DNA from: Deltaproteobacteria bacterium
GTDB lineage: Bacteria > Myxococcota_A > Polyangia > Haliangiales > Haliangiaceae
Reading direction: 5' to 3'
Length of the DNA: 51,373 bases
Assembly: GCA_013813765.1 (NCBI GenBank)
Contig: JACCRC010000404.1
Coordinates: 1-51,373 of the forward strand
Part shown: positions 35,644 through 51,373 of the stretch, in pieces
How the letters are laid out: every line of letters begins with the position of its first letter
Numbering within the stretch: position 1 is the first letter of the stretch
Translations under genes and position numbers: made by a program
Notes under the pieces: model-generated
What the model was told of the DNA's origin: nothing
The model's database searches: none
What the model saw: the letters and a program-made list of their open reading frames with translations, nothing else

Positions 35644-38274
35644 TCAGTGCGTCTCGCGAAGCTCGGCTTCCCAGATATCCCCGGCCGTCGTCCACCGCCC
35701 GACGAGGATGTCGTCGCCCGCGTAGGTCGCCCCGAGGAGCGTGTCCGAGCCCACGTCGAACGTGCGCAGGACCTTGCCCGTCGCCACGTCCAGCTCGCTG
35801 CCCATCCCGTCCCGGCGGAGTGCGAGCAAGCGCTTGCCGTCGGGAGACCACCGCAGATCGCGATACGGATAAGCAGCAAGCTCGGGCGCGAGGCGCCGGC
35901 TCTTGCCGGTCTTCTGATCGAGCACCATCACGTGTCGCTCGAGCGCCTTGCCGCCGGGCGCCTCGGCGAGATACGCGAGCAGGTCCTCCACCGGCGACTG
36001 TGCGGGGGCGAGGCTCGGCGCGGGCAGCGCCCAGGTCGCGGCGCCTCCGCCGACCGCGACCACGGCAACTCGATCCTTCTCGCCATCTCGCGACTCGAAG
36101 AACACGCGGTTGTTGTCGCGACTGAAGCTCGCGTTGTGCTCGGTCGTGTCACCGCCCGGGGCGAGCTTGATCGGGAGGGTCGATCCATCGATCGCTCCCG
36201 CGAACAGGCCGTCGTCATTCGCACCCGCGAGCAGCTTTCCGTCGTGCGAGACCGTGATCCGATCCAGCTCGATCTTGCCGAACGGGACGTGCCGCGGATT
36301 CTCCCCGCCCTTCCCCATCCGCCAGATCTCCTCGTTCGTGGTCCGATAGGTCACGAACAGCACCTCGTCGGTTCCCGGGATCGCCGCGGGCGAGAAGTCG
36401 ACCCACCTGTTGCGCGCGAGGTCGACGAACTTCGTCGCACCGGCGGGCGTCGTCTGGAGCGTCGCGATCGTGCCGTACTCGGCGCAGTCGGACCATACGA
36501 GCCGCTTGCCGTCGAGCGCGAGCCGCTTGCGCGCGTTGATCGCGGCACCGCTGACGTTCACGGCCTTGCCGCCGTCGAGCGGCACGCGCCAGATCTCGAT
36601 CGACGCCGTCAACGTGTAGCGCGCGACCAGCACGGCTCCGCCTCCCGGTGCGAGCGCCAGCACCTCGTCCATCGGGCGCTCGTCGCTCGGGGGGAGGAGC
36701 CACCGCGAGGTCGTGGCGCCGGCGTCGTACAGCGCGAGGCCGTCCGCGTTCGCCGTGCCGGTCTTCGTCAGCACGACGACACGCTGATCCGGAAGCTCGA
36801 TGGCGGCCATCGGGAACGCCCCCTTCGGCAGCTCGAGGGTGCGATTCGCGACGAGTGTCTTCGCGTCGTAGCGCGAGATGCCCTTGCGGGCCCCGGCCCA
36901 TACCGAGGTGCCGTCGGGCGACCATGCCGGACGGAAGCCTCCGGGAACGATCTTCTTCGCGGTTCCGAGATCTGCGAGGTCCGCGACGTGCGCCGCCATC
37001 GCCTCGTCGGTCTTCCTCAGAAATGCGATCCGCTTGCCATCGGGCGAGACCGCAGGCGCGAGGTCCCAGCCCTTCGTCGCGGTCAACTTGCGGCTCTGGC
37101 GAGAGACCGGATCGATCGCCATCAGGTGCTGGTCCGCGCCGAAGATCTGATCGTAGTAGATGGTGCCGTCGGGCCCGATGCTCGGGAACTCATCGCACGA
37201 GTCGGTGAGCGTCAGGCGCCGTGCGTCGGACAGCTCGAGCATCGGCACCGCCGCGACCGCCGGCGCACCGGCATCCGCCGGGGTGGTGCTGCCGCTCCCC
37301 GCCGCCAGCACGGCGATCGTGGTCGCGCCCGCGGCCAGCAGCACGCCGCCGCCGATCAGCAGCGGCGCCTTGGACCGCGGAGACAGCTCCGCGATCAGCG
37401 CGTTCATCGATGGAAAGCGCTCGCTCGGATTCGCGGAGAGCCCGCGCTGAAGCGCCTGCAGCTGGTGCTTCGAGAGCTTGTCGGTCTTCGCGTCCCTCGG
37501 CGCGTTGCCGCGGACACTGTTCTTGAGCTCCTCGTGGTTCGCTCCGCGAAACGGCCGCTCGCCGAAGATCGCCTCCCACAGCGCGATGCAGAAGCTGAAC
37601 TGATCCGCCGCGGGCGTGAGGTCCATGTGCTCGAACTGCTCCGGCGCCATGTAGGCCGGCGTCCCGGCGATCGCGGACTTCGTCCTGTCGAGCGCGCCCG
37701 GGCTCGGCGTCGCCGGGTTCGCGGCGAGCTCGCCGATCCGCGCAAGCCCGAGATCGGAGACGCGCACGACGCCCGCCCTGTCGACGAGCGCGTTGCTCGG
37801 CTTGAAGTCGCGGTGGATGAGTCCCGCGGCGTGGATCGCCGCGAGCCCGTGAGCGGCCTGCAGGAACAGTGCGATCACGTCACGCGGCGGCGGCTTCGTG
37901 CGCTCGAGGTACGCGCCGAGGGTCTCGCCCTCGATCAGCTGCATCACCAGGTACGGCGTGCCGTCGACCCCGGCGTCGAAGACCGAGAGGACGTTCGGGT
38001 GCGTGACACGCGCGAGCGCTTGCGCCTCGCGGCGAAGCGCAGCGCCGAGCGCCTCCGGTGTGCGAGCGTCGCCGACGAGGATCTTGACCGCCACACGGCG
38101 ATCGAGCTCCGGATCGCGCGCCGCCACCACGACGCCCATACCGCCGCGCCCGAGCACGTGCTCGATCTGATAGCGGCCGATCGTCGCCTTGCCGGTCGCG
38201 AGCTCCGCGTCCGACAGCGGCTTGGTGGGCGTCGCGTCGGCCGGCGTATCTCGGGGAGTGGGACCTTCGCTCAC
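35644..38274 (-). CDS. Ser/Thr protein kinase with TolB/WD40-like beta-propeller
   Basis: 876 residues. The kinase domain (about 34-290) has LGRGGMGVVVAARD, VAVKIL and HRDFKPSNALVD; the usual DFG is DLG (DLGLARIG), a change found in other active bacterial kinases of this group. One TM segment (about 307-330) leads to an extracytoplasmic domain of about 540 residues made of repeated beta blades with SPDG-type turns (ISPDGKRIAFLRK, WSPDGTSVW, FSRDNNRVFF, WSPDGKRLLALRR), as in TolB-like propellers. This is a receptor kinase that binds a ligand or envelope protein outside. Its start overlaps the stop of the FHA sigma-54 activator gene (ATGA), suggesting that the kinase modifies that activator. 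Confidence 0.92.
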   Translation of the reverse strand: MSEGPTPRDTPADATPTKPLSDAELATGKATIGRYQIEHVLGRGGMGVVVAARDPELDRRVAVKILVGDARTPEALGAALRREAQALARVTHPNVLSVFDAGVDGTPYLVMQLIEGETLGAYLERTKPPPRDVIALFLQAAHGLAAIHAAGLIHRDFKPSNALVDRAGVVRVSDLGLARIGELAANPATPSPGALDRTKSAIAGTPAYMAPEQFEHMDLTPAADQFSFCIALWEAIFGERPFRGANHEELKNSVRGNAPRDAKTDKLSKHQLQALQRGLSANPSERFPSMNALIAELSPRSKAPLLIGGGVLLAAGATTIAVLAAGSGSTTPADAGAPAVAAVPMLELSDARRLTLTDSCDEFPSIGPDGTIYYDQIFGADQHLMAIDPVSRQSRKLTATKGWDLAPAVSPDGKRIAFLRKTDEAMAAHVADLADLGTAKKIVPGGFRPAWSPDGTSVWAGARKGISRYDAKTLVANRTLELPKGAFPMAAIELPDQRVVVLTKTGTANADGLALYDAGATTSRWLLPPSDERPMDEVLALAPGGGAVLVARYTLTASIEIWRVPLDGGKAVNVSGAAINARKRLALDGKRLVWSDCAEYGTIATLQTTPAGATKFVDLARNRWVDFSPAAIPGTDEVLFVTYRTTNEEIWRMGKGGENPRHVPFGKIELDRITVSHDGKLLAGANDDGLFAGAIDGSTLPIKLAPGGDTTEHNASFSRDNNRVFFESRDGEKDRVAVVAVGGGAATWALPAPSLAPAQSPVEDLLAYLAEAPGGKALERHVMVLDQKTGKSRRLAPELAAYPYRDLRWSPDGKRLLALRRDGMGSELDVATGKVLRTFDVGSDTLLGATYAGDDILVGRWTTAGDIWEAELRETH

Positions 38275-39602
38275 GAGCGTGGCCGCACGATCCGGTACAG
38301 CCGGAGCCGGTTGATCATCGTGCTGCGCGAGATGCCGAGGATCTTCGCCGCTCGCGTCTGGTTACCGACCGCCTTCTCGAGCGCGGCGATGTACTCCGCG
38401 CGCTCCGCGAGCTGCGACGGCGACAGCGTGGCGAGGAACGGGTCATCCGCCTCGGGCTCCGCGGTCTCCGCTGGCGTGGCCCGCGGCGAGAACGCGAGGT
38501 GGCGCGCGCCGATCGGTCCACCGCGCGCGAGCAGCAGCGCGCGCTCCATCACGGCCTTGAGCTCGCGCACGTTGCCGGGCCAGTCGTGGGCTTCGAGCGC
38601 CTGCACTGCCTCCAGCGCCAGGGGGCGCGTCGGTTTACTCGCCTGCGCGCATGCTCGTTCGAGGAACCGGGCCGCGAGGCCCGCGATGCGATGCCGGCGC
38701 TCGCGCAGCGGCGGGATCGTCAGCGTGATGCCGTCGAGGCGGAAGTACAGGTCGTGGCGGAACCGCTTCGCGGCGACCTCGGCCGGCAGGTCGCGGTTCG
38801 TCGCCGCGATGAATCGAACGTCGATCTTGATCGGTCGGATCGATCCGATGCGCAGGACCTCGCGTGACTCGATCGCCCGCAGCAGCTTCGCCTGCGTCGA
38901 CAGTGGCAGCTCGCCGATCTCGTCGAGGAACACGGTGCCGCCCTGTGCCGACTCCAGAAGGCCCACCTTCGTGCCTGCCGCGCCGGTGAACGCACCCTTC
39001 TCGTGACCGAACAGCTCGCTCTCGATCAGCGGCTCCGCGAGCGCCGCGCAGTTGACTCGCGCGAGCTCGCCTTGCCGTCCCGACAGCACGTGCAACGTCT
39101 CGGCGAGGACGTCCTTGCCCGCGCCCGTCTCGCCCAGCAGGAGCACGCTGGTCGGCGTACGCGCGACATCCTTGACGAAGCCCGGCACACCGTCGATCGT
39201 GGGGTCCTCGACGCGCAAGCGCTCGGTGCCGGAGCGGCGCGAGCTCGAGGCGCTGGTGCTATCGCCCGACGCGATCAGGAACGCGAACGGGCCGATGTGA
39301 AAGCCGTCGCCGATCGCGAGCTCGATCGGTGCACCGCCGCGCAAGACCTCGCGGCCGGTGATGCGGACTCCGTTCGTCGAGCCGAGGTCCTGGATCGTCA
39401 GCGGCGGTCCGACGCGCAGCACCGCGTGCTGGCGCGAGAGGATCGGATCGTCGATCACCACATCGCACGATCGATCGCGGCCGATCGTCACCTGCGCTTT
39501 CGCGAGCGCGTGCGTCGCGAAGTAACCCTTGCCTGCGACGAGCAAGAAGTCGCCGATGCTCGCTCGCTGTCGAGCATCGCGGTCAGGAGCGGTGTCACCC
39601 AC
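38271..39602 (-). CDS. FHA-domain sigma-54-dependent transcriptional activator
   Basis: 443 residues from GTG 39602. An FHA domain (about 25-105: VTIGRDRSCDVVI, LSRQHAVL, DLGSTNGVRI) takes the place of the usual receiver domain. The AAA+ domain (about 125-350) has GETGAGKD, the sigma-54-contacting GAFTGA, GTVFLDEIGEL and the Arg-rich finger region; the C-terminal Fis-type HTH is AAKILGISRSTMINRLRLYR. Threonine phosphorylation by a kinase should bring it into action through FHA. The overlapping downstream gene encodes such a kinase, whose propeller is outside the cell. A plausible sigma-54 promoter and a strong inverted repeat lie upstream. Confidence 0.93.
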   Translation of the reverse strand: MGDTAPDRDARQRASIGDFLLVAGKGYFATHALAKAQVTIGRDRSCDVVIDDPILSRQHAVLRVGPPLTIQDLGSTNGVRITGREVLRGGAPIELAIGDGFHIGPFAFLIASGDSTSASSSRRSGTERLRVEDPTIDGVPGFVKDVARTPTSVLLLGETGAGKDVLAETLHVLSGRQGELARVNCAALAEPLIESELFGHEKGAFTGAAGTKVGLLESAQGGTVFLDEIGELPLSTQAKLLRAIESREVLRIGSIRPIKIDVRFIAATNRDLPAEVAAKRFRHDLYFRLDGITLTIPPLRERRHRIAGLAARFLERACAQASKPTRPLALEAVQALEAHDWPGNVRELKAVMERALLLARGGPIGARHLAFSPRATPAETAEPEADDPFLATLSPSQLAERAEYIAALEKAVGNQTRAAKILGISRSTMINRLRLYRIVRPRS

Positions 39603-39655
39603 GCTCCCTCCAACGTATCAGGACCAGCGCCCGTTCTGCGAGTCGGCGGATCCTT

Positions 39656-39686
39656 CGACTGCGTACGCGAACTGTGTACGCAGTCG
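39656..39686. promoter_or_regulatory. 11-base perfect inverted repeat, operator candidate
   Basis: CGACTGCGTAC (39656-39666), a 9-base spacer, then GTACGCAGTCG (39676-39686). It lies in the 158-base gap between the divergent FHA-activator and secreted-protein genes, 54 bases from the activator start. Spacing suits a dimeric regulator such as a Fis-type HTH protein; a hairpin is the alternative. Confidence 0.55.
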
Positions 39687-39729
39687 GGTGCGGTCGCCGC
39701 TAACCGCGCGAAACGCGCCAAGCGCTCCA

Positions 39730-39745
39730 CGGTACGGCGCTTGCC
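39730..39745 (+). promoter_or_regulatory. Sigma-54 promoter-like sequence
   Basis: CGGTACGGCGCTTGCC reads well against the TGGCACG-N4-TTGCW consensus: the GG and GC doublets have the correct spacing and the TTGC core is intact. It lies 44-70 bases beyond the inverted repeat, which could bind the divergent sigma-54 activator. The initiation point would be only about five bases before ATG 39761, so any transcript would be nearly leaderless, which weakens the case. Confidence 0.4.
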
Positions 39746-39760
39746 AGCACATCGGGTCAC

Positions 39761-41305
39761 ATGCGCAAAACGACGATCATCCTGACCACGCTGTGCGGGC
39801 TCGCGGCCCACATCAGCACCGCCGCTGCCGCACCCGCGTGGTGCAAGGGAGGCGACGAGAAGCCCAGCTACGACATGAAGTCGCTGTTCTCGGAGACCGA
39901 CGCCGATCGAGCGCTCATGCAGCTCGTCGCCGCGAGCTGCTATGGCGAGGCCGACGTCGCTCAGATGGGCAAGCAGGTCAACACCACGCGCGAGGCGTGG
40001 AACAAGAAGCTCGGGATGGTCGAGGCCGACTGGGCCGACGTGTCGGAGTGGGCCCACCTGCCCCGCCACCTGCGTGGCGATCCGAAGATCGAGGTCAAGG
40101 ATCGCCAGGCCGCGTGGTCGGCGTACTCGCCGCTGGATCAGTACGGCGCGCTGATCTCCGACATCGGCAACGCCGACAACGCGTACATCGCCGACGCGTT
40201 CGGGACGAGGCTCACCCAGCTCGGTCGCCTTGGCTACGTCGCGTACTGTGTCGGCTCTCACCCGATCGATCCTTCGGTGACCTGGGCGATGTGCGCGACC
40301 GACGCTGCCGCACTCGATCTCGCGAAGATCAGCGCCGAGATCCGCGCCGATACCACGCACGGCGCCGGCGACCGGATGGCCGCGCGGATCACCGCGTACG
40401 AGACGCTCGCGAAGCTCCCGAAGCTCCAGACCGACATCAAGGCGCTGAAGGCGAAGGACCCCGCGTTCGCGACGATGTTCGCACTTGGAGAGACCGCGCA
40501 CGCGCAGTGGGGCAAGACCAACGCGGCCGCGATCGCGCTTGCCGATGCGCTCGACGACGCGCGGTCGAGCGGCTCGCGCAGCGCGAGCGCGAACTGCACG
40601 GCGAAGGCGTGGGAGGGCTGGAAGTCCGCGGTCTCGAGCCTCGGGGCCAAGCGTCTCGGGACGATCCAGCAGACGCAAGACAGGCCCTACGTGCCGCAGC
40701 TGGTCGCGATGCTCACCGCCGAACCGAACGGCTACCTCGCCGCGCTGAACCTGAACGTCTGCGCGAAGCTCGAGGACAAGGAGGACATGCTGTCGAACGT
40801 GATCGGCGACGCGATCGGACGGTGGCCAGGGTTTCGCGGGCCGCGTACCGGCACCCAGACGGCGATCCTCACCGCTGGGTTCAAGCTCGACAACCGAAAT
40901 GCCTCGATCGAGTTCCCGGAGGTGAAGCGCGACTGGATCTCCGGATCGGGCAGTGTCGACCAGTTCGGATTCGGCGTGATCGACTCCATCAAGGCCGACG
41001 GAGAGCGCGTGACGATCACGTTCAAGAAGGAGAAGATCACGCAGACTCGCTGCGTGAAGGGTCACTACACGAACCGGATCAGCCAGATCATGTCGAACGG
41101 AACGGTCGTCTACTACTACGTCTGCGACCAGGAGATCACCGAGACGATCCAGGTGGCGCCGTGGACGCCGATCAAGGTCGCGGCCCGGTATGCAGTTGGC
41201 TTCAAGCCAGGGATGAGCGTGACGATCAGCGAGGAAGTGCCGGCTGTCGCGTACCTCAAGGGCAAGACCATCCCGGCGGTCGTCGTCGGGGTCGAGGTGA
41301 AGTGA
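39761..41305 (+). CDS. Secreted protein of unknown function
   Basis: 514 residues with a good signal peptide (residues 1-23, ending ISTAAAA). The mature part is mainly helical to about residue 350, with spaced cysteines (WCKG, ASCYG, AYCVG, WAMCA, NCTAK, NVCAK) that may pair as disulfides. A beta-rich C-terminal domain follows (about 365-514) with two more Cys (TRCVK, YVCDQ). No family or catalytic motif is recognised. It is divergent from the FHA sigma-54 activator, with a putative operator and sigma-54 promoter in front of it, and the following gene starts on its last stop base. These suggest that it is a target of the kinase/activator pair. Confidence 0.72.
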   Translation: MRKTTIILTTLCGLAAHISTAAAAPAWCKGGDEKPSYDMKSLFSETDADRALMQLVAASCYGEADVAQMGKQVNTTREAWNKKLGMVEADWADVSEWAHLPRHLRGDPKIEVKDRQAAWSAYSPLDQYGALISDIGNADNAYIADAFGTRLTQLGRLGYVAYCVGSHPIDPSVTWAMCATDAAALDLAKISAEIRADTTHGAGDRMAARITAYETLAKLPKLQTDIKALKAKDPAFATMFALGETAHAQWGKTNAAAIALADALDDARSSGSRSASANCTAKAWEGWKSAVSSLGAKRLGTIQQTQDRPYVPQLVAMLTAEPNGYLAALNLNVCAKLEDKEDMLSNVIGDAIGRWPGFRGPRTGTQTAILTAGFKLDNRNASIEFPEVKRDWISGSGSVDQFGFGVIDSIKADGERVTITFKKEKITQTRCVKGHYTNRISQIMSNGTVVYYYVCDQEITETIQVAPWTPIKVAARYAVGFKPGMSVTISEEVPAVAYLKGKTIPAVVVGVEVK

Positions 41306-42036
41306 TGTGGCGGATCGGCATCGTCGCGCTCGGTGGCTGCACCGCGCTGATCAAGTCGCCCGGCCAGGCCACCTCGGCACCCGTCACGTCATCTTCGAGT
41401 GACCAGCACATCGTCGAGGCGGGGCCGCGGATCATCAAGCACGTGTCCCTGCCCGTCCCCGACCGCCCCACGGATCCGTGGTCCAGCGTTCGCGGCGACC
41501 AGCCGATCCTGTTCGATGACGCGCTTGGCACCACGACCGACTTCGACATCAGCGACCAGCCCGTCGAGTGCACGGCCGCGCGCGATCACTGCCTGCCGGC
41601 GCTGTCGTGGATGTGGATCCACGAGGGCGACAATCAGCGCGTGAAGGGTGCGCACGTCGTCGCGATCACGTCCGACGGCGTACGCCAACCCATCGGCGCG
41701 AAGGGGACGACGACTCCCGATCGATACACCGCGTACCGCACGGTTCCCGCGACGAGGCAGACCCTCGTCGAGGGCACGCTCGCGCTCGCGCACCCCAAAG
41801 CTGTGCCCGCGAGCCCCGAAGATGCCTGGGCCGTGTGGGCCCTGGGTCCGGTCGAGCGTGTCGACTGGGATCTCGGCTTCTTCTGGTTCGCCGGCGACAA
41901 GGAGCCGCGGTTCGTGACGAGCGCGCGCGTCGCCGTGCTGAGCTGGACGCCGGGTGCCAAGGTGACGATCGTCGGCACGAAGCAGCGCAACGAGCTCGCC
42001 GTGAAGGTCGCGGACGTCATCGTCCCCGAGCCGTAG
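41305..42036 (+). CDS. Putative lipoprotein co-encoded with the secreted protein
   Basis: 243 residues from ATG 41305, which shares its A with the TGA of the preceding gene (TGATG); GTG 41302 is an alternative. The N-terminus (MWRIGIVALGGCTAL) resembles a very short lipoprotein signal, with Cys12 in an LGGC lipobox. The mature part is beta-rich with a Cys pair (residues near 91 and 97) and ends VKVADVIVPEP. Family not recognised. The coupling implies one complex or one process with the preceding secreted protein. Confidence 0.65.
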   Translation: MWRIGIVALGGCTALIKSPGQATSAPVTSSSSDQHIVEAGPRIIKHVSLPVPDRPTDPWSSVRGDQPILFDDALGTTTDFDISDQPVECTAARDHCLPALSWMWIHEGDNQRVKGAHVVAITSDGVRQPIGAKGTTTPDRYTAYRTVPATRQTLVEGTLALAHPKAVPASPEDAWAVWALGPVERVDWDLGFFWFAGDKEPRFVTSARVAVLSWTPGAKVTIVGTKQRNELAVKVADVIVPEP

Positions 42037-42213
42037 CTACTGCGCGCGCGACACCTGCACGCGCAGCCGGTTCCCTTCGCGCTCCACCATCACCGTCCAC
42101 GGACGGCAGCACACCGCGCAGTCCTCGACGAGGGTGCCGCGCGTATCCGGGTCGACATAGAGCTCGACCCACTCGCGGCAGTAGGGGCAGCGAACCCGGA
42201 CCGTGTCTTCCAC
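42037..42213 (-). CDS. CPXCG-family cysteine-rich zinc-ribbon protein
   Basis: 58 residues from GTG 42213 to TAG 42037-42039. VRVRCPYCREWVELYVDP carries the first CxxC; ECDCAVCCRPW-like EDCAVCCRPWTV carries the second, and the length and order fit the CPXCG family of single zinc-ribbon proteins (Pfam CPXCG). The role of this family is not known. Its stop abuts the stop of the convergent lipoprotein gene with no gap. It is shorter than the usual 60-residue cut-off and easily missed. Confidence 0.8.
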   Translation of the reverse strand: MEDTVRVRCPYCREWVELYVDPDTRGTLVEDCAVCCRPWTVMVEREGNRLRVQVSRAQ

Positions 42214-42228
42214 GTCCGAGCAGTATAG

Positions 42229-42823
42229 CTACTCGAACGTGATCGTCTCGTGGCTCGGCGTCTCGGCCGGCACGATCACGAAGTACGTCGTCGCGAGCGC
42301 TCGGATCACGACGCGAGGCACGGGATACGGCGTTCCACTGACCGTGCCGAGGAGATTCGCGTGCTGGTCGCGCACCTCGTGGATCGGTGTGTGCATCGCC
42401 GTGCCGACGATCTCCGCCTGGTAGTACGCGTCGCGCGGATAGTGCTGCGTCGTCGTGCTTCCCGAGCCGCTGCGCCCGCAGGTGCGCCGCATACGGCGAC
42501 AGCAACGGCAGACACGCGCGCAGCCGGGGTACTCGACCAGGCGCGCGGCCGACTTCATCGCGAGGCCGCGCTCCACCTGTTCGACCAACGGCTCGATCAC
42601 TCGCTCCAGCAGCTCGAGCTCGTGCAACACGATGCCGTCGCCCAGCTCCCGCTCCGAGCGTGCGCTCGGACGCCGCGCTCTCACGCACCTCGTTGACCTC
42701 GAGCAGGTCGACGCCGTCGGGCAGCTCGCTCAGCGCCTCCCACAGCTCCGCGCGACGCTGCAGCACCAGCTCCTGGTCCACCCGATCGATCGCGTAGACG
42801 AGCGTGTCGACCACCTCGCGCAC
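42229..42823 (-). pseudogene. Apparently frameshifted helical protein gene
   Basis: Two minus-strand frames join to make one plausible protein. The first begins at GTG 42823 (VREVVDTLVYAIDRVDQELV) and is helical and coding-like to about 42670 (DLLEVNEV), after which it becomes Arg/Gly-rich nonsense. The second frame takes over at about 42650 (ERELGDGIVLHELELLERVIEPLVEQVERG), continuing the helix, then a Cys/Arg cluster (CRCCRRMRRTC) and a beta-like tail ending SHETITFE at 42229. The join lies in a repetitive stretch rich in GAGCG/CTCGG. This may be a one-base indel in the genome, an assembly error, or two overlapping genes, the second starting at GTG 42684. Function not recognised. Confidence 0.5.
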
Positions 42824-42977
42824 CCTCTCGACCGCCGGCCGTGCACGCGCCGAGGCTAGCCGCCGCGCGACCCGTAACTCCGCGAGTGGCCTGCTCCCCC
42901 CGCCCCCGCGTCACGCGATCTGCGTACACGGCGTACGCGGCTTTGAACCCGCGCCCGCGGAGCGCTACCACTGGGGG

Positions 42978-43286
42978 ATGCCCTCCGAGCTCCAACAGGG
43001 TCTCACCGAGACCGAAGACCTGATCGACGAGCTCGTCACGTTCGCCGACACCGTCACCGGTAGTCTCGACGAGCTGGTCGAGACGCTGACCACGATCCCG
43101 GCGGACCTCGGCCCGGCGATCGAGACCGCCGCTCAGCTCCCGGGCGCGCGTCAGCGAATGGTCATCGCCGTCGAGTCGATGTGCGCCGCGCTCGATCGTC
43201 AGCTCGCGGCCTTCGATCGCCACCGCGCCGCGATGGCGCATGTCACCGAGTCCCTCCGCGAGAAGCTTCGCGAGGGCACGAGCTGA
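42978..43286 (+). CDS. Small helical protein of unknown function
   Basis: 102 residues from ATG 42978, preceded by GGGGG. Almost wholly helical, with heptad-like hydrophobic spacing (LTETEDLIDELVTFADTV, LDELVETLTTI) and a charged C-terminus, suggesting a coiled coil or four-helix bundle. No signal peptide, TM segment or known motif. It is the last gene before the tRNA-derived fragment at 43352 and so appears to be the final chromosomal gene before the island. Confidence 0.6.
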   Translation: MPSELQQGLTETEDLIDELVTFADTVTGSLDELVETLTTIPADLGPAIETAAQLPGARQRMVIAVESMCAALDRQLAAFDRHRAAMAHVTESLREKLREGTS

Positions 43287-43350
43287 TCGTCAGGGCCTCG
43301 CGCTCGCCCACCGATCGACCGACGAGCACGAGCACGAGTAACCGGTTCAC

Positions 43351-43647
43351 GTGATCCCTGCAGGTCTCGAACCTGCGGCCTGCGCTTTAGGAACGCCCTC
43401 CGAGGAGGATCCTGACGCATCGGCTCGTGAAGTTTCGCGCAATTCGGAGGCGCCGGTCGAGGCCGAAGACGGCCCCGAGCTACGTTCTGCTACATCTCGG
43501 AGTAGCACTGTAGCAGCGGCCGAAACTGACCCTCTTGACAACATTGCGATCGCACTTCTTCGCGCGCAGGCGATGTGGCTTCGAGGCGGCGACAAGCGAG
43601 CGCTGCGGCGATCGTTGATCGAGCTACTCGCCGCTCTGGAGGCCTAG
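43351..43647 (+). CDS. Doubtful small ORF spanning the island junction
   Basis: 98 codons from a GTG at 43351. The first 14 codons read antisense through the tRNA fragment (IPAGLEPAACAL), a known source of false gene starts. The last 40 codons (LDNIAIALLRAQAMWLRGGDKRALRRSLIELL) look like a real amphipathic helix. If there is a gene, its start must be further in, but the only in-frame ATG gives just 24 residues. Confidence 0.25.
   Translation: MIPAGLEPAACALGTPSEEDPDASAREVSRNSEAPVEAEDGPELRSATSRSSTVAAAETDPLDNIAIALLRAQAMWLRGGDKRALRRSLIELLAALEA
43352..43393 (-). mobile_element. 3' half of a tRNA-Arg(CCT) gene: attachment-site remnant
   Basis: Read on the minus strand, 43393-43387 is a 7-base anticodon loop TTCCTAA with anticodon CCT. 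It is followed by the 3' anticodon strand AGCGC, a 5-base variable loop AGGCC, a perfect T arm (GCAGG, loop TTCGAGA, CCTGC), the 7-base 3' acceptor strand and discriminator A at 43352. The matching 5' half is missing: the five bases before the loop (GGGCG) cannot pair with AGCGC, and no D arm or 5' acceptor strand is present. The break at the anticodon loop is where tyrosine recombinases commonly cross over in tRNA genes. This is therefore probably the att remnant at one end of an island lying to the right. No integrase or intact copy is in the window. Confidence 0.75.
43479..43516. repeat. Nested inverted GCTAC/GTAGC repeats
   Basis: Two direct GCTAC (43479-43483, 43489-43493) face two GTAGC (43502-43506, 43510-43514). 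The longest perfect pair is CTGCTACA (43487-43494) with TGTAGCAG (43509-43516). It lies about 90 bases inside the tRNA-fragment junction, so it may be a binding site for a recombinase or excisionase, or a hairpin. Confidence 0.55.
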
Positions 43648-43700
43648 GCCGATGTTCACTTGCCCCTTCGCCGTCGCCCGATCGGCGCTACGATGGAGTC

Positions 43701-43961
43701 ATGGCGAAGCCGGCGACCCGCGACGAGATTCTCGATCAGATCCGCACGATGCCGACCGAGGATCGCGAATACATCGAAGCCGAGCTGATGCGTGAGGCCT
43801 ACGAAGCCGGTCGCATGACCGAGGCCGGACCGCTCGTCGCGGAGCTCGTCCGCCGCGCTGAAGACGCGCTGGCGCACCCCGAACGTGGCGTCTCGCGCGA
43901 ACAAGCAGTCGCGAATGCGCGCGCTGCGGTCGATCGTGTCCGCGCACGAATCAAGCCGTGA
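43701..43961 (+). CDS. Antitoxin-like protein of an addiction module
   Basis: 86 residues from ATG 43701. A helical N-terminus (TRDEILDQIRTMPTEDREYIEAELMREAYEAGR) resembles the short addiction-module antidote families that precede RelE/ParE toxins; the charged C-terminal part would wrap the toxin. Its stop overlaps the start of the toxin gene (GTGA), the usual antitoxin-first order. The exact antitoxin family is uncertain, since no typical DNA-binding fold is clear. Confidence 0.72.
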   Translation: MAKPATRDEILDQIRTMPTEDREYIEAELMREAYEAGRMTEAGPLVAELVRRAEDALAHPERGVSREQAVANARAAVDRVRARIKP

Positions 43962-44266
43962 GGAGCTTCAAGGTCGACGACGTTGCCGCCGATGAATTCG
44001 AGGCAGCGGCGGCGTGGTACGAGGGCGAGCGTCCCGGCCTGGGTCTTGAGTTCATCGCCGAAGTGAACCGCACGCTCGACCGAATCGAACATCACGAAAC
44101 CTTCGTAACAGCGCCAGTAACCGCAATCCGTGGCGGCGTTGTCCGTCGTGAGTTCGTTCGCCGGTTCCCGTATGTCGTCATGTTCGTCGAGACGGACGAC
44201 ATTCGCCGCGTGATCATGATCCGCCGAGGTACTTCAGACCCGGATCTCTGGCAGTCGCGCATCTGA
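43958..44266 (+). CDS. RelE/ParE-family toxin
   Basis: 102 residues from GTG 43958. The sequence follows the RelE/ParE pattern: an N-terminal VDDVAADEFEAAAAWYEGERPGLG helix pair, FIAEVNRTLDRIEHH, and the beta-sheet core RREFVRRFPYVVMFV and IRRVIMIRRG, ending DPDLW. The family inhibits gyrase (ParE) or cleaves ribosome-bound mRNA (RelE); which one cannot be told. It forms a coupled pair with the antitoxin gene upstream and lies about 560 bases from the tRNA-fragment junction, where such modules often stabilise islands. Confidence 0.85.
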   Translation: MRSFKVDDVAADEFEAAAAWYEGERPGLGLEFIAEVNRTLDRIEHHETFVTAPVTAIRGGVVRREFVRRFPYVVMFVETDDIRRVIMIRRGTSDPDLWQSRI

Positions 44267-44322
44267 TCATTCGCGTTGGGGTTGCGATACGTGAGGTGTT
44301 CCCGAGCAGAATCGATCACGTG

Positions 44323-44661
44323 CTATTCGAGCAGCTCGATCATCTCGAACTGGCCGAGTGCGACGTCGAGTCGCGGAAGAAGCTGCGTCGGCCACTGGCT
44401 CGCGTCGGCTATGAGCTCGTTCACGCGCTTCATCGCGCTGCGACTTGCAGTGGCCGTGGTCATGTAGAAGGAGATGCCGCTGTTCTCGTGGACGACGGCG
44501 GTGACGCCCTCGTCCGAGATGTGAACGAGTCCCATGGTGTCGCGTTCGATGCGCATGGTCAGTGGACCGGCCGGATCGCGTCGACGTGAACCGACGATGT
44601 TGGGGACTGCAAGGCGTCCGAGGAACTCGGGCACGCTCTCATCGAAACCGCCTGCGGCCAC
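44323..44661 (-). CDS. Hypothetical protein downstream of the hybrid kinase
   Basis: 112 residues from GTG 44661, which overlaps the last 23 bases of the hybrid kinase-EAL gene on the same strand. The middle part is beta-like (LTMRIERDTMGLVHISDEGVTAVV), and the C-terminus is helical (SAMKRVNELIADASQW). No motif or family is recognised. The overlap suggests coupled expression with the EAL protein. Confidence 0.5.
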   Translation of the reverse strand: MAAGGFDESVPEFLGRLAVPNIVGSRRRDPAGPLTMRIERDTMGLVHISDEGVTAVVHENSGISFYMTTATASRSAMKRVNELIADASQWPTQLLPRLDVALGQFEMIELLE

Positions 44662-47600
44662 TGAGCCCGACGGCGGCGAAACTATCGATCACGTTCTGCT
44701 TGGGGGGGAAGGTTCGTTCGGGTCGCCCCAACACGTAGCCCTGGAGCAGATCGCAACCGAGCGCAACCAGGCACTCGCGCTCGTCCAGTGTCTCGACGCC
44801 TTCTCCGACGACGAGGCATCCGACCTCCTTGCAAAGCCGGCACAGCGCCGCGACGGTTCGTTGCTTGAGCGCGCTCTTGTGAACATCACGAACCAGCGAC
44901 ATGTCGATCTTCACGACCTCCGGCACCAGCTCCGTGAAGCTCGTGAGGCCCGAATACCCGGCGCCAATGTCGTCCACGGCGAGCCGGAAACCGAGCTTTC
45001 TCAATCGAGCGAGACGCGCGGACAACTCTGGCGAGTTTACGAGCGAAGCGCGCTCTGTCACTTCGAGCACGACGCGCGACGCGATCCTCGTGAGCGGAGA
45101 GGATTCATCCAGCAGTTCGACATCCGAGAGGTCGTCGGGATGAAGATTCACGAACAGGACAAGATCACTTCGATCGGTCAATGCAGCCGCCGAAAGCGCG
45201 CGTACCTTGCGGCCGAGCTGGGGGAGTCGCGCCAGCTGAGTCGCAGCATCGAGCAGCTTGTTAGGGTTCGACATCGAGACCTCGCCCGAACGCACGAGCG
45301 CCTCGACGCCGTATAGCGCTCCGGTGTTGGAATCGAAGATCGGCTGAAAGGCCATCCAGAGCTGTTCGAGCGCCTGATCGAATTGGACTTCGAGGCCAAC
45401 ACGATCGGCGGCGCCGGTCTGTGCCCCACTGACTGCGAACGCCTCACGACGAATCCGCGCAAGCGCGTGCACACGTATCGCGTGATGGATCGTCTTGCCA
45501 AGCACGTCGGTATCGATGGGCTTGGTCAAGTAACGAAACGCTCCGTATTCGATCGCGGTCGCGGCCGACGTCACGTCCGGCGCTCCGCTCATCAAGATGA
45601 TCGGAACGTCAAGATCGACCCCACGAATCGCTCGCATCAGGTCGAGGCCGCCTCCGCCCGGCATCTGAACGTCGCTGAGGACGACGTCGAACGGCCTCGC
45701 CTCGAGTTCCTTGATCGCAGTGCGACCATTGTCGACTTCCACAACGTCAATCTCGAGCTTGCGGAGGATCCGGCCGATCACCTTGCGGAGGTGGTCATCG
45801 TCGTCGACGACCAACACCCGCGGGAGATCCTTGGCTTCTCGAACCAGCGGAAGTCGTCCGGTGATCGTGCGCGGAGGTTCGGCGCCGATCACGCGTGCCA
45901 CCGCAGCGCGAAGCAGCGACGGGCTGAACGGTTTCGCGAGAAGATTGTGTGGTGCTGCGCCGGTCGGACTGAGCGCTCCCGCTGGATATCCGGACATCAT
46001 CACGACCTTGATTAACGGTCTCAGCTCGCGAAGCTGATGCACGAACCGATCTCCGCGGCCATCGGCGAGCACGACATCCAGCACGACGACATCGATCGAG
46101 CCCTCGTACGTCACGCACATGCGACGCGCCTCTTCGGCGGTCGCCGCCTCGATCGTGTGGCAGCCGGCCTCTTGAAGCACACGAGCGGCGACTGTCCGCA
46201 CTTCGCGTTGATCGTCCACGACGAGCACGGTCATTGCCGGCAGCGTTCGGGGAGCCTCGACCGGCGAGCGTTCGGGATCCACGACGGTCTCGCTCGAGAC
46301 GGGGAGGTGTATGCGGAACGTCGTGCCATGTCCAAGCTCGCTGTACGCTGACACGCAGCCGCCCGCCTGCGAGACGATTCCATGGACGATGGACAAACCG
46401 AGGCCCGTGCCCTTGTCGGGTTCCTTGGTCGTGAAAAAGGGATCGAAGATCCGCGCCTGGGTCTGCGCATCCATGCCGGTGCCGGTATCGGTGACGGCGA
46501 GCACGACGTAATGGCCTGGCTTGACGCTCCGCATCGCAGCCTGATCCTCGTCGAGCGTCTCCTCCATGGTCTCGATCGTCAGACGACCGCCGCTTGGCAT
46601 CGCATCTCGCGCGTTCACGGCGAGATTCATGATCACCTGTTCCATCTGCCCCGGATCGGCAACTACCGGCGGCGTCTCGGTCTGGTGAGTCACGACCGTT
46701 ACCTGTTCGCCGACTAGGCGGCGCAACATCGGGATGAACTTGGCCACCAGGTCGTCGAGATTCATCGAGCGTGGCTCGACGATGCTGTGCCGGCTCAACG
46801 TGAGGAGCTGGCGGGTGATCCCGGTCGCGCGTTCAGAAGCTCTCCGGATCTCACAAACGTCGTCACGGCGCCTGTCGTTCGGATCGAACGACTCTTCCAG
46901 CATCCAGGCGTAGCTCTCAATCACGGTGAGCAGGTTGTTGAAGTCATGCGCGACTCCGCCCGCAAGCCGTCCGATCGCGTCCATTTTTTGGGCTTGCCGC
47001 AATTGCCCCTCTGTCTTACGTAGCTTGTTCTCGGCAAGCTCACGCGCGGTCACGTCGCTGACGACGACCAGGCGAACGGGTTTGCCAGCCTCCACGAAGT
47101 CGTTTGCAGCGATCTGGACACTGATGATCGAACCGTCCTTCTTTTGGTGGCGCCACAGGGCCGGCGCGAGGAGGCCCGTGGCCTCGCCGATGTTGGCCCT
47201 CAGGGCAGCGACGTCCTCGGGCGGACGGATGTCGGCGAGCGTCATCGCAGCGAACTCGTCGCGGGAGTAGCCGTAGTGGCGAATGGCCGCCTCGTTGACG
47301 GCGATGAAGCGCAGCGTTTCTCGATCAAACAGCCACATCGGCACAGGGACGTGCTCGAACATGGCGCGATAGCGCTCCTCCGCTCGGGCGACAAGTTGCT
47401 GCTTCGTCGCGAGGTAGGCTTCTCCGATACTCTGGACGGCGATGTCGAGCATCCTATACATGCCGTGTTCCGCGGTCGTCGCTTTCGGCAGGTGCCGCTC
47501 CGTGGCCATCAATTGCCGAGTCGAATCGCGAAAAAGCCTGATCAGATCAAACCACCCGGAGTAGCTCACGCCGGCCTCTGCGTACTGGATGCCCTGAGCG

Positions 47601-47860
47601 CGCAGATCTTCGAGATACGGATCCCAGCGGTCCTCGACGATCGCGTTCCGTTGCAGCTGCTGGCTTCGGCGCTCTCGCTCATCGATCTGATCGGACGAGA
47701 GCGTTTCCAGGATCGGCTTCCACTCGGGGAGATCAGCGGCACGACGCCGCACGTCCTTCGAGATCACTGCGCTACGCGGCTCGTAGAACCGCCAATACTC
47801 TTGAAGTGCTTCCCGGTCCTCGGGGTTCAGCTTGAAGAACAAAGGAGAGTCGGTGGGCAT
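44639..47860 (-). CDS. Globin-like/PAS/histidine kinase/REC/REC/EAL hybrid protein
   Basis: 1073 residues from ATG 47860 (AAAGG five bases before; GTG 47866 is the alternative). Domains in order: a helical sensor resembling globin-coupled domains (about 10-165), though the proximal-His position reads as QGIQYAEAG; PAS (about 165-285); HisKA with GGVAHDFNNLL and HATPase_c with GTGMDAQ and GTGLGLSIVHG (about 300-525); two receiver domains, each with its phospho-Asp (VLDVVLAD; LSDVQMPG); and an EAL domain (about 825-1060) with EALVR, NLHPDD, EVTER, VDDIGAGYSG, KID and EGVET. The EAL residues suggest a working cyclic-di-GMP phosphodiesterase. Phosphate could therefore flow from kinase to receivers within one protein and set EAL activity. 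Confidence 0.9.
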   Translation of the reverse strand: MPTDSPLFFKLNPEDREALQEYWRFYEPRSAVISKDVRRRAADLPEWKPILETLSSDQIDERERRSQQLQRNAIVEDRWDPYLEDLRAQGIQYAEAGVSYSGWFDLIRLFRDSTRQLMATERHLPKATTAEHGMYRMLDIAVQSIGEAYLATKQQLVARAEERYRAMFEHVPVPMWLFDRETLRFIAVNEAAIRHYGYSRDEFAAMTLADIRPPEDVAALRANIGEATGLLAPALWRHQKKDGSIISVQIAANDFVEAGKPVRLVVVSDVTARELAENKLRKTEGQLRQAQKMDAIGRLAGGVAHDFNNLLTVIESYAWMLEESFDPNDRRRDDVCEIRRASERATGITRQLLTLSRHSIVEPRSMNLDDLVAKFIPMLRRLVGEQVTVVTHQTETPPVVADPGQMEQVIMNLAVNARDAMPSGGRLTIETMEETLDEDQAAMRSVKPGHYVVLAVTDTGTGMDAQTQARIFDPFFTTKEPDKGTGLGLSIVHGIVSQAGGCVSAYSELGHGTTFRIHLPVSSETVVDPERSPVEAPRTLPAMTVLVVDDQREVRTVAARVLQEAGCHTIEAATAEEARRMCVTYEGSIDVVVLDVVLADGRGDRFVHQLRELRPLIKVVMMSGYPAGALSPTGAAPHNLLAKPFSPSLLRAAVARVIGAEPPRTITGRLPLVREAKDLPRVLVVDDDDHLRKVIGRILRKLEIDVVEVDNGRTAIKELEARPFDVVLSDVQMPGGGGLDLMRAIRGVDLDVPIILMSGAPDVTSAATAIEYGAFRYLTKPIDTDVLGKTIHHAIRVHALARIRREAFAVSGAQTGAADRVGLEVQFDQALEQLWMAFQPIFDSNTGALYGVEALVRSGEVSMSNPNKLLDAATQLARLPQLGRKVRALSAAALTDRSDLVLFVNLHPDDLSDVELLDESSPLTRIASRVVLEVTERASLVNSPELSARLARLRKLGFRLAVDDIGAGYSGLTSFTELVPEVVKIDMSLVRDVHKSALKQRTVAALCRLCKEVGCLVVGEGVETLDERECLVALGCDLLQGYVLGRPERTFPPKQNVIDSFAAVGLSGRRRFR

Positions 47861-47989
47861 ATACACCTTTTGAATGAGGTGCCACCGTCTGAAGAGCTAC
47901 GCCAACGCCTCAGCCAGCAGAGTAGCTCGACGGATCCTTGATGGACAGCTGTCGCAACCTCACGTTGATTCTCCTGCTGTGTGCCAGAG

Positions 47990-49372
47990 CTACTTGAAGC
48001 TTCCCGGATCGATGCCGTTGCGTTGAAGCAACCTGCGAAAGTTCGTCCGGTCGAGTCCTGCGAGCCGAGCTGCTTCCGACACGGAGCCCTTGGCCTTTTC
48101 CATGACGTGCATGAGATAGCGGCGCTCCAGGGCTACGGTAGAGCGCCGTTTGGCCTCGGTCAGCGATAGCTGCTCGATGTCGAGATCGAGCATGGAGATC
48201 GTTCGTCGCTGGCGCGCGCCCACGTGCAGCGGGAGTGACTCGATGCCGATGACGTCACCGTGATGCAGCGCGATGGCGTGGAGGATCGCGTTCTCTAGCT
48301 CGCGGACATTGCCGGGCCACGGGTGATCCGCCATCAGCTCCAGTGCTTCAGGCGCCAACGACGGCGCGCCAGCCCCGGCGTGCTTCTTCAGAAGATGAGC
48401 GACGAGCAAGGGCAGGTCGTCGAGTCGTTCCCGCAGCGCAGGCACCTCGATCTTGACGACGTTGAGCCGGTAGTAGAGATCTTCACGGAACCGGTGCTGC
48501 GCGACCGCGGTGGCCAGATCGACGTGGGTCGCGGCGATCACGCGGACGTCGACCTTGTGCGTGGTGCTCGCTCCAACCGGACGGACCTCGCCTTCTTGCA
48601 GAACACGAAGCAGGCGCGTTTGCACGTGCATCGGCATGTCGCCGATCTCGTCGAGCAGGAGAGTCCCGCGATCCGCATCGACGAAGACGCCCGTTCGATC
48701 GGTGGTTGCGCCGGTAAACGCACCGCGTTTGTGGCCGAAGAGCTCGCTGTCGATGAGCGACTCCGGGATCGCGCCGCAGTTGAGCGCGATGAAACGCCGA
48801 CCGCGGCGGGTTCCACGTTCATGAAGCGCGCGAGCAACGAGCTCCTTGCCCGTGCCGCTCTCCCCTTGGATCAGGATCGAGACGTCGCGATCGGCGAGTT
48901 GGGTGATGGAAGCCCTCAAGCGCCGCATCGCGGCCGAGGCACCGACGAGCGTCGAGTCCTTCGCGTCGCCGAGAATCTGGCGGGCCGTCGCCAGCTCTCG
49001 GCGGAGGATCGCAAAGCGCGCCGCGGATTCCACCATCGACTTCAGCTCGAACGGCTTGAACGGTTTGGTCAGGTAGTAGAACGCACCTGCACGCATGCAC
49101 GTGGTTGCGGTCGCCGCCGTGTTGTCGCCGGTCAACATGACGACAGACGCGAGTGATCCGGCGTCGCGCAACCTGAGCAACACGTCGATGCCGCTCATCC
49201 CGGGGAGGCCGACGTCGAGGATCACGACGTCCCAGTCCGCGGTGCCATCTTCGACTCGGGCGAGCACGACTGCCGGATCCTCGACCGCTTCGACGGCGAC
49301 GCGCTCCGCGGTGAGCGTCTGCACGATCGCGCGAGTGACCGCGGGATCGTCTTCCACCACCATCACCTTCAC
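47990..49372 (-). CDS. NtrC-type sigma-54-dependent response regulator
   Basis: 460 residues from GTG 49372, just before VKVMVVEDD; the open frame continues to 49462 but adds a basic tail unusual for this family. Receiver domain about 1-118 with Asp in VILDVGLPG; AAA+ domain about 135-365 with GESGTGKE, the sigma-54 contact GAFTGA and GTLLLDEIGDMP; Fis-type HTH about 420-460 (SVSEAARLAGLDRTNFRRLLQR). It activates sigma-54 promoters when phosphorylated. It lies 129 bases upstream of the hybrid kinase-EAL gene on the same strand and is probably its partner. No sigma-54 promoter was found in front of that gene. Confidence 0.92.
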   Translation of the reverse strand: MKVMVVEDDPAVTRAIVQTLTAERVAVEAVEDPAVVLARVEDGTADWDVVILDVGLPGMSGIDVLLRLRDAGSLASVVMLTGDNTAATATTCMRAGAFYYLTKPFKPFELKSMVESAARFAILRRELATARQILGDAKDSTLVGASAAMRRLRASITQLADRDVSILIQGESGTGKELVARALHERGTRRGRRFIALNCGAIPESLIDSELFGHKRGAFTGATTDRTGVFVDADRGTLLLDEIGDMPMHVQTRLLRVLQEGEVRPVGASTTHKVDVRVIAATHVDLATAVAQHRFREDLYYRLNVVKIEVPALRERLDDLPLLVAHLLKKHAGAGAPSLAPEALELMADHPWPGNVRELENAILHAIALHHGDVIGIESLPLHVGARQRRTISMLDLDIEQLSLTEAKRRSTVALERRYLMHVMEKAKGSVSEAARLAGLDRTNFRRLLQRNGIDPGSFK

Positions 49373-49782
49373 TCGTTCGAGATCGTCCAAGGTACGACTC
49401 AGGCTCCGAACCCGCAGGCTCGCACGCGTATGTAGGGAAAGCCATCGGGCCACGGCAGCCATCCGGTGCCAGTGGCGAGCCAGCTCCTCGCCTCATACGA
49501 GGACTTCGTCGCCAGATCGATCGTCGCACGCGGCTCCGGGTGGGTAACGCCGACCCATCTTGGTGCTCGATCGCGAGCGGAATCTGCGGCAGGCCGACGA
49601 AGAACCGGGTGGGTAGTCTGCGAACCCAGGGCGCGCGTGCGGCTCACGGATCGAAGGCTTCGCGGCGCCGATCTCGTCGGCGAGCAGGCGGGCTCGTCGC
49701 GTGCCGAGGCGTTGACGGTTGGCGCGCCTCTCGCACTGAAGCGCGGCAAGACCAAGTCGTCAACCTTCACTTCGGAGTCACA
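49373..49782. other. Divergent intergenic region without a supported gene
   Basis: About 410 bases between the NtrC-type regulator and the first secreted-subunit gene. Overlapping frames on both strands exist but are Arg/Ser-rich or lack ribosome sites. A direct repeat CCGGGTGGGTA occurs at 49536-49546 and 49605-49615 and could be a regulator site. A GGAG ribosome site at 49773-49776 serves the downstream gene. No riboswitch could be identified. Confidence 0.4.
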
Positions 49783-50265
49783 GTGTCCAATTCTCGCGTC
49801 CTCAAAAGCATCCTCCTCGTTTCCCTCGCGCTGTCGTCCACGGCGATCGCCGCCACCACGGGCAGCGTCACCCTCGGTGGAAGCGTGTCGTCCACGCTAG
49901 CGATTACGTCGACCGCCACCGCGGCGGCGTCTACGCTCGATCTGTCGACCGGCCAGAAGATCGTCCAGGTCGCCGACCTCGCGATGATCACCAACAACGA
50001 TCAAGGTCTCACGCTGACCGCGACCTCCGGCAACCTGACGAAGACTGGTGGCGCCTCTATCGCGTTTCAGGTCAACGCCGTCGCGGACACCGCGGCCTGT
50101 GTCGAAGCAGATTTCTTGGTCGCCTCGGGTACCAACTATGTTGTGTCGCAGTCCTCGACAGGAGGTGCCATCGCCAAGGACCTCTACATCATGTACACGC
50201 CCGGCGCGACCCAGGACCCGGGCGACTACGCCGGCAGCATCAGCCTGACCGTCTCGGACAACTAG
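49783..50265 (+). CDS. Secreted structural subunit, pilin-like
   Basis: 160 residues from GTG 49783, with GGAG seven bases before it. A signal peptide (about 1-22, SILLVSLALSSTAIA) is followed by a Thr/Ser/Ala/Gly-rich beta domain with few charges (GSVTLGGSVSSTLAITS, LTLTATSGNLTKTGG) and the C-terminal strand PGDYAGSISLTVSDN, typical of fimbrial or surface-fibre subunits with a final donor/acceptor strand. One Cys (AACVEA) is present, so there is no internal disulfide. A similar subunit and a PapD-like chaperone follow, so these genes probably build one fibre or spore-coat-type layer. Confidence 0.75.
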   Translation: MSNSRVLKSILLVSLALSSTAIAATTGSVTLGGSVSSTLAITSTATAAASTLDLSTGQKIVQVADLAMITNNDQGLTLTATSGNLTKTGGASIAFQVNAVADTAACVEADFLVASGTNYVVSQSSTGGAIAKDLYIMYTPGATQDPGDYAGSISLTVSDN

Positions 50266-50281
50266 CTAGCTAGGTCACGTC

Positions 50282-50731
50282 ATGCGGACGGCCTTCGCTA
50301 TCGCGTTCGTGCTCGCGGCCACCACAGCAATGGCTTCCGCGACACCCGCACTCATCGCATCATCCACCGGCAATCCCGGCGCGCTGGTGATGGATGGCGA
50401 AGGCACTTCGTCCACGCGCATCGTCAAGATCGCAACGCTCACGCTCTCGACCGATGACGGCGACGGCCTGACCGTATCGATCACGTCGGGCTCGCTGACC
50501 AAGGCCGACGGCCGTACGCCTGTTCCATTCCAGGTCGTGCTCGTTGCGAGCGGTGCGTCGGCGCCGGTCTCTGGCGAATTCACAACACCCTCGCCGACCA
50601 CGTACACCTGGTCGAACGGCGGTACGGGCGAGGTCGAAATGGATCTCTACATCAAGTACACGTCTGCGTCCCTTCAGGATCCGGGCGCCTATTCGGCAAG
50701 CGTCGACCTTGTCGTCGTCGACAACCCGTAG
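50282..50731 (+). CDS. Second secreted structural subunit, pilin-like
   Basis: 149 residues from ATG 50282. Signal peptide about 1-21 (FVLAATTAMASA). The beta-rich mature region matches the first subunit in order: KIATLTLSTDDGDGLTVSITSGSLTKADG, then the final strand DPGAYSASVDLVVVDNP. The shared LTxxSGxLTK and DPGxY motifs indicate duplication. No Cys. It starts 16 bases after the first subunit ends, in the same operon. Confidence 0.72.
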   Translation: MRTAFAIAFVLAATTAMASATPALIASSTGNPGALVMDGEGTSSTRIVKIATLTLSTDDGDGLTVSITSGSLTKADGRTPVPFQVVLVASGASAPVSGEFTTPSPTTYTWSNGGTGEVEMDLYIKYTSASLQDPGAYSASVDLVVVDNP

Positions 50732-50738
50732 GAGCCCC

Positions 50739-51275
50739 ATGCTGATCATTCGTCTTCTCATCGCCGCCAGCTTGCTCGTTCAGCTCATCGGCGAGCGCAC
50801 GAGCGATGCGTATCGACTCGAGCCGATCTCGCGCGTGTTCGCTCCAACTGGCTCGAAGGCCACGCAGTCCTTCGAGATCAACAACGATGGCAACGAACGC
50901 ATCGCGCTCGTGGTCTCGGTGCAGACGCTGGAACGCGATGATTCGTACGTCGAGACCAATCGCGATGCCGAGGACGAGTTCCTCATCTATCCACCGCAGA
51001 TGGTGTTGTCGCCCGGCAAGCGCCAGACGCTGCGAGTGACCTGGCTCGGCGACACGAACCTGGCCCGCGAGAAGGCATATCGCATCGTCGTCCAGCAGGT
51101 GCCGATCGAACAGCTGGATCCCACAGCGAAGAACACGACGACGCCCGACGGTCGCGTGCGCGTGCTGCTCAATTATCGCGGCACGTTGTTCATCCGACCG
51201 CTGCGTGCAGCGCCAAAGATCTCGATCGAAGCTGCACCCGGGTCGCCTGTTAACGGCGGACGTTTCCCGTCGTGA
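50739..51275 (+). CDS. PapD-like periplasmic chaperone, short form
   Basis: 178 residues from ATG 50739, with GGAG just upstream. Signal region about 1-24. The mature part matches the N-terminal immunoglobulin domain of fimbrial chaperones: LEPISRVFAPTGSKATQSFEI, then FLIYPPQMVLSPGKRQTLRV (the conserved F1 strand and PPxxxLxPG motif). The protein breaks off after LLNYRGTLFIRP, just as the second domain should begin; typical chaperones are about 230-250 residues. A stop at 51273 is followed by a hairpin. Neither other frame continues a recognisable domain, so this is either a truncated gene or a frameshift. An usher gene is not visible. Confidence 0.72.
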   Translation: MLIIRLLIAASLLVQLIGERTSDAYRLEPISRVFAPTGSKATQSFEINNDGNERIALVVSVQTLERDDSYVETNRDAEDEFLIYPPQMVLSPGKRQTLRVTWLGDTNLAREKAYRIVVQQVPIEQLDPTAKNTTTPDGRVRVLLNYRGTLFIRPLRAAPKISIEAAPGSPVNGGRFPS

Positions 51276-51288
51276 TCTGACGGTCGAC

Positions 51289-51315
51289 CGATCACGCCCG
51301 CTGGCGGCGTGATCG
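51289..51315. terminator. Hairpin after the chaperone gene
   Basis: CGATCACGCC (51289-51298), loop of seven, GGCGTGATCG (51306-51315), a perfect 10-base stem starting 14 bases after the chaperone stop. No T-run follows directly; a TTTTTGTT appears about 37 bases on. It may end the fibre operon at this point. Confidence 0.5.
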
Positions 51316-51373
51316 ACTGGTCTTCGCCGGCGGGCGATCAGGATCGAGCTGGTTTTTGTTGCGCCAGGACTCG

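Follow-up and report, generated by a model that had tools for sequence, protein, structure and literature searches.

What does half of a transfer RNA (tRNA) gene, broken off exactly at the anticodon loop, mark in a bacterial genome, and where is its other half? The question is raised by the window, the whole 51-kb stretch of DNA analysed here (JACCRC010000404.1), which is the entire contig C158 of the Deltaproteobacteria assembly GCA_013813765.1 (G000), its right edge being the contig end. G000 is a metagenome-assembled genome (MAG) of 8.11 Mb in 562 contigs, 88% complete and 3% contaminated. We found that 42 nt at 43352-43393 on the minus strand, TTCCTAAAGCGCAGGCCGCAGGTTCGAGACCTGCAGGGATCA, which parse as TTCCTAA AGCGC AGGCC GCAGG TTCGAGA CCTGC AGGGATC A, equal base for base positions 32-73 of an intact tRNA-Arg(CCT) gene in a same-genus Kofleriaceae MAG, our reference (G008:C176:10405-10481, JALHPV010000176). 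The identity, which begins precisely at T32, is not due to chance, and the initial annotation was right to call the fragment an exact 3′ half of tRNA-Arg(CCT). It is present in a single copy in the assembly, with up to three mismatches allowed. We conclude with high confidence that the fragment is the right attachment site (attR) of an integrative element, whose integrase, of the Myxococcus phage Mx8 family, cut the sole tRNA-Arg(CCT) gene in its anticodon loop and left it unrebuilt. The integrated element is probably a prophage or a genomic island.

ARAGORN and Rfam called no tRNA at the fragment, as expected for half a gene. That none of the five bases preceding the loop can pair was an overstatement, three of them (positions 27, 29 and 30) being formally pairable, but comparison with the G008 gene confirms that they are not tRNA sequence. 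Nor is there evidence of a group I intron, Rfam having reported no tRNA or intron family either in the region or in the whole window.

When the genome was searched with the G008 tRNA contig, the 5′ half was recovered on a second contig, C34 (G000:C34:6472-6512), at 100% identity to the G008 gene. The C34 sequence there, GATCCCTTAGCTCAGTTGGATCAGAGCGGCGCTTTCCTAA, departs from the tRNA at base 39, and the window departs from the intact gene at base 31 in the opposite direction, the overlap of the two halves being exactly the seven bases TTCCTAA. Joined with one copy of this core, the halves match the G008 gene without a difference across the full 75 nt. ARAGORN called tRNA-Arg(CCT) in the joined sequence only, being negative on the left attachment site (attL) and on attR. 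The 5′ half on C34 runs directly into integrase sequence and not into a 3′ half. To the right of this junction, the minus strand encodes the C-terminal portion of a tyrosine recombinase (HTFITLAQVDGARRDLLKVMTHG...GMYTSFPW), which matches Mx8 Int at 54% over 50 amino acids, the only match among 50,697 phage records; a relative matches Mx8 Int at 46% over 326 amino acids. In the joined circular form the C34 integrase frame passes through the core into the window's open reading frame (ORF) at 43394-43647 and stays open for 230 amino acids, and we thus read the two junctions as the attL and attR sites of a single element whose core is 7 bp long. The joined integrase tail has no close relatives in IMG/VR. 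Additionally, the 8-mer CTGCTACA occurs in the window only close to the fragment, in two copies no more than 130 bp away, and on C34 only close to the 5′ half, in three copies no more than 260 bp away; such a pattern would be expected if arm-type integrase sites flanked a single element attachment site (attP) to left and right. The attP junction predicted for the excised form is GGAGGGCG-TTCCTAA-GCTCAAGC.

The initial annotation had placed an integration junction at the fragment, with the element above 43,394, and this is borne out by composition as well as by the nearby repeats. From the chromosomal to the element side, G+C content (GC) decreases from 0.66-0.71 to 0.61-0.66 and that of third codon positions (GC3) from 0.89 to 0.77, a compositional step that likewise shows the boundary.

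Two exact halves on separate contigs could also point to a functional split tRNA, each half being transcribed separately and the two then trans-spliced, as some archaea do. We consider this scarcely conceivable, as the two halves have seven bases in common, an integrase is adjacent, and no complementary leader or trailer is found (duplex −19.0 kcal/mol versus −20.0 ± 3.9 for shuffles). We know of no bacterial precedent for a trans-spliced split tRNA.

In our preferred reading, integration without reconstruction, attP would have had only the 7-bp crossover region TTCCTAA in common with the chromosomal site (attB), and the tRNA would consequently have been split into a 5′ half (attL, on C34) and a 3′ half (attR, in the window) and not rebuilt. 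Since the integrase reading frame contains the core, integration would also have detached the last ~85 codons of int, which would now form the window ORF at 43394-43647. On excision, the tRNA gene would be reconstituted exactly.

Under the rule stated by Islander, an island restores its target tRNA gene (PMC4383910). The initial annotation had expected an intact tRNA at the far end of the element. The locus resembles such canonical islands (PMC4383910) in its anticodon-loop crossover, in the 3′ fragment at the distal end, with its exact start at T32, and in the integrase beside the tRNA, but differs in that the tRNA gene is not regenerated: at the far junction on C34, only the 5′ half is present and element sequence comes next to it, and the assembly contains no intact tRNA-Arg(CCT). 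The tyrosine recombinase foreseen beside the tRNA does exist, next to the 5′ half, but its gene is truncated. A whole-genome tRNA search of G000, with ARAGORN run on the tRNA loci, recovered the Arg anticodons TCG, CCG, ACG and TCT, as well as GCG in a tRNA array, and no CCT. That array (G000:C70 2507-8438, L040), on a 24-kb contig of phage or other origin, holds ~21 tRNAs including Arg(GCG), without Arg(CCT). G000 thus appears to have lost tRNA-Arg(CCT). Such a loss may be tolerable, since AGG is used ~4-6 times per 1000 codons in the genes counted and tRNA-Arg(TCT) could decode AGG by wobble; AGG codons would then be read by this tRNA or by an element tRNA in unassembled sequence.

In relatives, the usual arrangement is a tRNA-Pro(GGG) followed a few kb downstream, in the same orientation, by tRNA-Arg(CCT), and the tRNA-Pro(GGG) block of G000 is on contig C298. 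The starts of C34 and C298 resemble the two ends of one insertion sequence (IS; ends TGTTA[C/G]GGAGC) within a single PAS-kinase gene, whose frame rejoins as VRAVPVFAADDGAIREWAAIHSDITQRK when the IS is omitted and a 2-bp GC duplication is collapsed. The 5′ half on C34 has therefore most probably kept its original position and orientation.

A 5′-half pattern search of the family genomes was too strict and overlooked known intact genes, and is therefore no guide to split copies in other genomes. In the same-genus G015 (C144 1999-3559, L109), an intact tRNA-Arg(CCT) is accompanied by an extra exact 3′ half from T32, 1.5 kb away, and in G005 an intact gene lies on one contig and an exact 3′ half from T32 beside a different integrase on another (C1138, L117), CTAGGACAC repeats occurring at both; the extra halves in the two genomes are flanked by repeated CTAGGACAC or CTAGGATAC motifs. 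Mx8-type integrases read antisense into intact tRNA-Asp in three loci of relatives (L160, L162, L168) and into intact tRNA-Arg(CCT) in G024 and G026 (L164, L165). The extra halves indicate that the tRNA-Arg(CCT) anticodon loop is a recurrent integration target that other elements use reconstructively, G000 being exceptional in not rebuilding the gene. These reconstructing relatives, together with the 88% completeness of the assembly, would also suit a canonical island in G000, whose attP carried the 3′ half and rebuilt the tRNA at the far end, with the intact gene now missing through incomplete assembly. We find this very unlikely, because what follows the 5′ half at the ancestral locus is integrase sequence and not a 3′ half, and because the integrase frame and arm repeats are common to C34 and the window. 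Stacked insertion at this tRNA, as seems to have occurred in G015, raises the further alternative that the 3′ half in the window stems from a canonical island and that a second, non-reconstructing element then cut the rebuilt tRNA to give the C34 junction; another 3′ half could lie in the unassembled gap. This too is unlikely: no second 3′ half is found in the assembly with up to three mismatches, and one attP accounts for both junctions through the common repeats and the integrase frame open from C34 into the window. A single integration event would thus suffice.

Several points weigh against the integration of one element without reconstruction. C34 and C158 are not physically linked in the assembly, and the inner end of each stops in repeats, so that the interior of the element, and with it its full size and gene content, lies outside the assembly. 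An intact tRNA-Arg(CCT) or an element-borne tRNA could be missing because the MAG is 88% complete and 3% contaminated. Furthermore, the N-terminal part of the C34 integrase was not found elsewhere in the assembly, and the cargo on the window side (regulators and a PapD-like chaperone) does not look phage-like.

A non-rebuilt tRNA is unusual, as such elements normally leave the tRNA gene functional. A close counterpart is the tRNA-dependent lysogeny of mycobacteriophages Fionnbharth and Gaia, which is non-reconstructing, uses short cores of 8-11 bp and relies on a compensating phage tRNA (PMC10865867). Both systems have a tyrosine integrase, an attB in a host tRNA gene, a short core (7 bp here) and a tRNA rebuilt at neither junction; the integrase family and the host phylum differ. 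No compensating tRNA-Arg(CCT) was found in the window, in C34 or in the rest of the assembly, the element interior being unassembled. Outside Actinobacteria, PMC10865867 cites only prophage Lj965 for this lifestyle; Mesorhizobium-phage-like prophages are mentioned in PMC12429752. Separately, a 156-kb viral contig (IMGVR_UViG_3300043642_000037, L053 3940-4014) encodes a tRNA-Arg(CCT) of its own, the 3′ half of which is very similar. The likeness to Mx8 Int/attP lies in the homologous integrase and in an int frame that spans the attachment core, so that integration alters the C-terminus. The target here is tRNA-Arg(CCT); the family members in relatives lie at intact tRNA-Asp or tRNA-Arg(CCT), and Mx8 Int has a tRNA-antisense-like GLEP segment that the attP predicted here lacks. 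Our reading would add the Mx8 integrase family in Myxococcota to the known cases of tRNA integration without reconstruction, and with reconstructing relatives at the same tRNA, the switch from a long to a short core is open to study. Island-finding tools assume a rebuilt target tRNA, a rule that the G000 case breaks, and a search for 3′ and 5′ halves would find others.

A recombinase-in-trio (RIT) element, with three adjacent tyrosine recombinases, in turn interrupts the integrase on C34 immediately ahead of the RHTF box of this integrase. All five close RIT copies examined, in G000 and G006, sit at the RHTF box of a different tyrosine recombinase each, every RIT end being followed by CGRCAYACSTTC-like sequence encoding RHTF. 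Among three distant plasmid RITs read, two (L178, L179) abut such a box (LHDLRH, RHRF) and L177 adjoins an ArdC-like gene, while two more divergent Kofleriaceae copies (L148, L150) sit in other sequence. Previously described RIT elements share the three adjacent tyrosine recombinase genes and palindromic ends, but their reported sites are radC and transposase genes (PMC3414803, PMC2864759), in contrast to the RHTF boxes of tyrosine recombinases occupied by all close copies here. These sites suggest that recombinase genes are themselves insertion targets. The RIT would have inserted later, into the catalytic RHTF box of the integrase, and should have locked the element in place. We tentatively suggest, as a possibility that we would not yet favour, that a Myxococcota element switches a host tRNA off by non-reconstructing integration and on by excision, and is now locked by a RIT specialised for the RHTF boxes of other elements' recombinases, one class of element thereby immobilising another.

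Table 1. Features of the two junctions, their flanks and the RIT copies; positions refer to the window unless a contig is named.
Feature	Position	Strand	Basis or remark
Chromosomal flank beyond the 3′ end of the original tRNA gene	42232..43351		Synteny with G003:C644 nearby
3′ part (T32-A73) of tRNA-Arg(CCT), putative chromosomal remnant at attR	43352..43393	-	Identity to G008 gene; 5′ half on C34
7-bp core TTCCTAA, whole anticodon loop	43387..43393	-	Sole tRNA sequence common to attL and attR
C-terminal coding segment of Mx8-type integrase	43394..43647	+	C34 frame continues through core to stop at 43647
Putative right part of integrated element	43394..51248		GC/GC3 shift, Pfam; extent from att geometry
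Candidate arm-type repeats CTGCTACA / TGTAGCAG	43487-43494 / 43509-43516	+ / -	Only two copies in 51-kb window
Two small ORFs	43698-44266		Element side
Sensor kinase with EAL domain	44639-47866	-	Pfam
Sigma-54 response regulator	47990-49462	-	Pfam
Two small ORFs	49540-50731		Element side
PapD-like chaperone	50544-51275		Pfam
IS-like end at contig edge	51248..51373		51248-51353 97% identical to contig end of another species, G004:C200
RIT element	G000:C34 6949-9255 (L120)		Inside integrase gene
RitC	C34 7060-8040		Open, Pfam-supported
RitB	C34 8046-8981		Open, Pfam-supported
RitA	C34		Truncated by IS-like repeat common to contig ends C533 and C538
Five close RIT copies	G000:C34 6949-9255 (L120), G000:C294:4238 (L147), G006:C201 (L143), G006:C120 (L144), G006:C254 (L152)		

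Judging from att geometry and composition, the genes to the right of 43394 would all be cargo of the element (Table 1); in relatives of this flank the sensor kinase is the only common part. On the chromosomal side, 35647-42621 is syntenic with the same-genus G003:C644. This contig was tried as an empty-site control and was unusable, as the match stops ~0.7 kb short of the fragment and no tRNA lies there. Near the island boundary, 42232-42823 appears to be what is left of a gene whose G003:C644 version encodes 707 amino acids, with ~1.3 kb lost internally. Finally, 42037-42213 on the minus strand holds a small CPxCG-type zinc-ribbon gene, which is conserved (79-85% DNA identity) in many genomes of the same genus, where the window genes around it are lacking.
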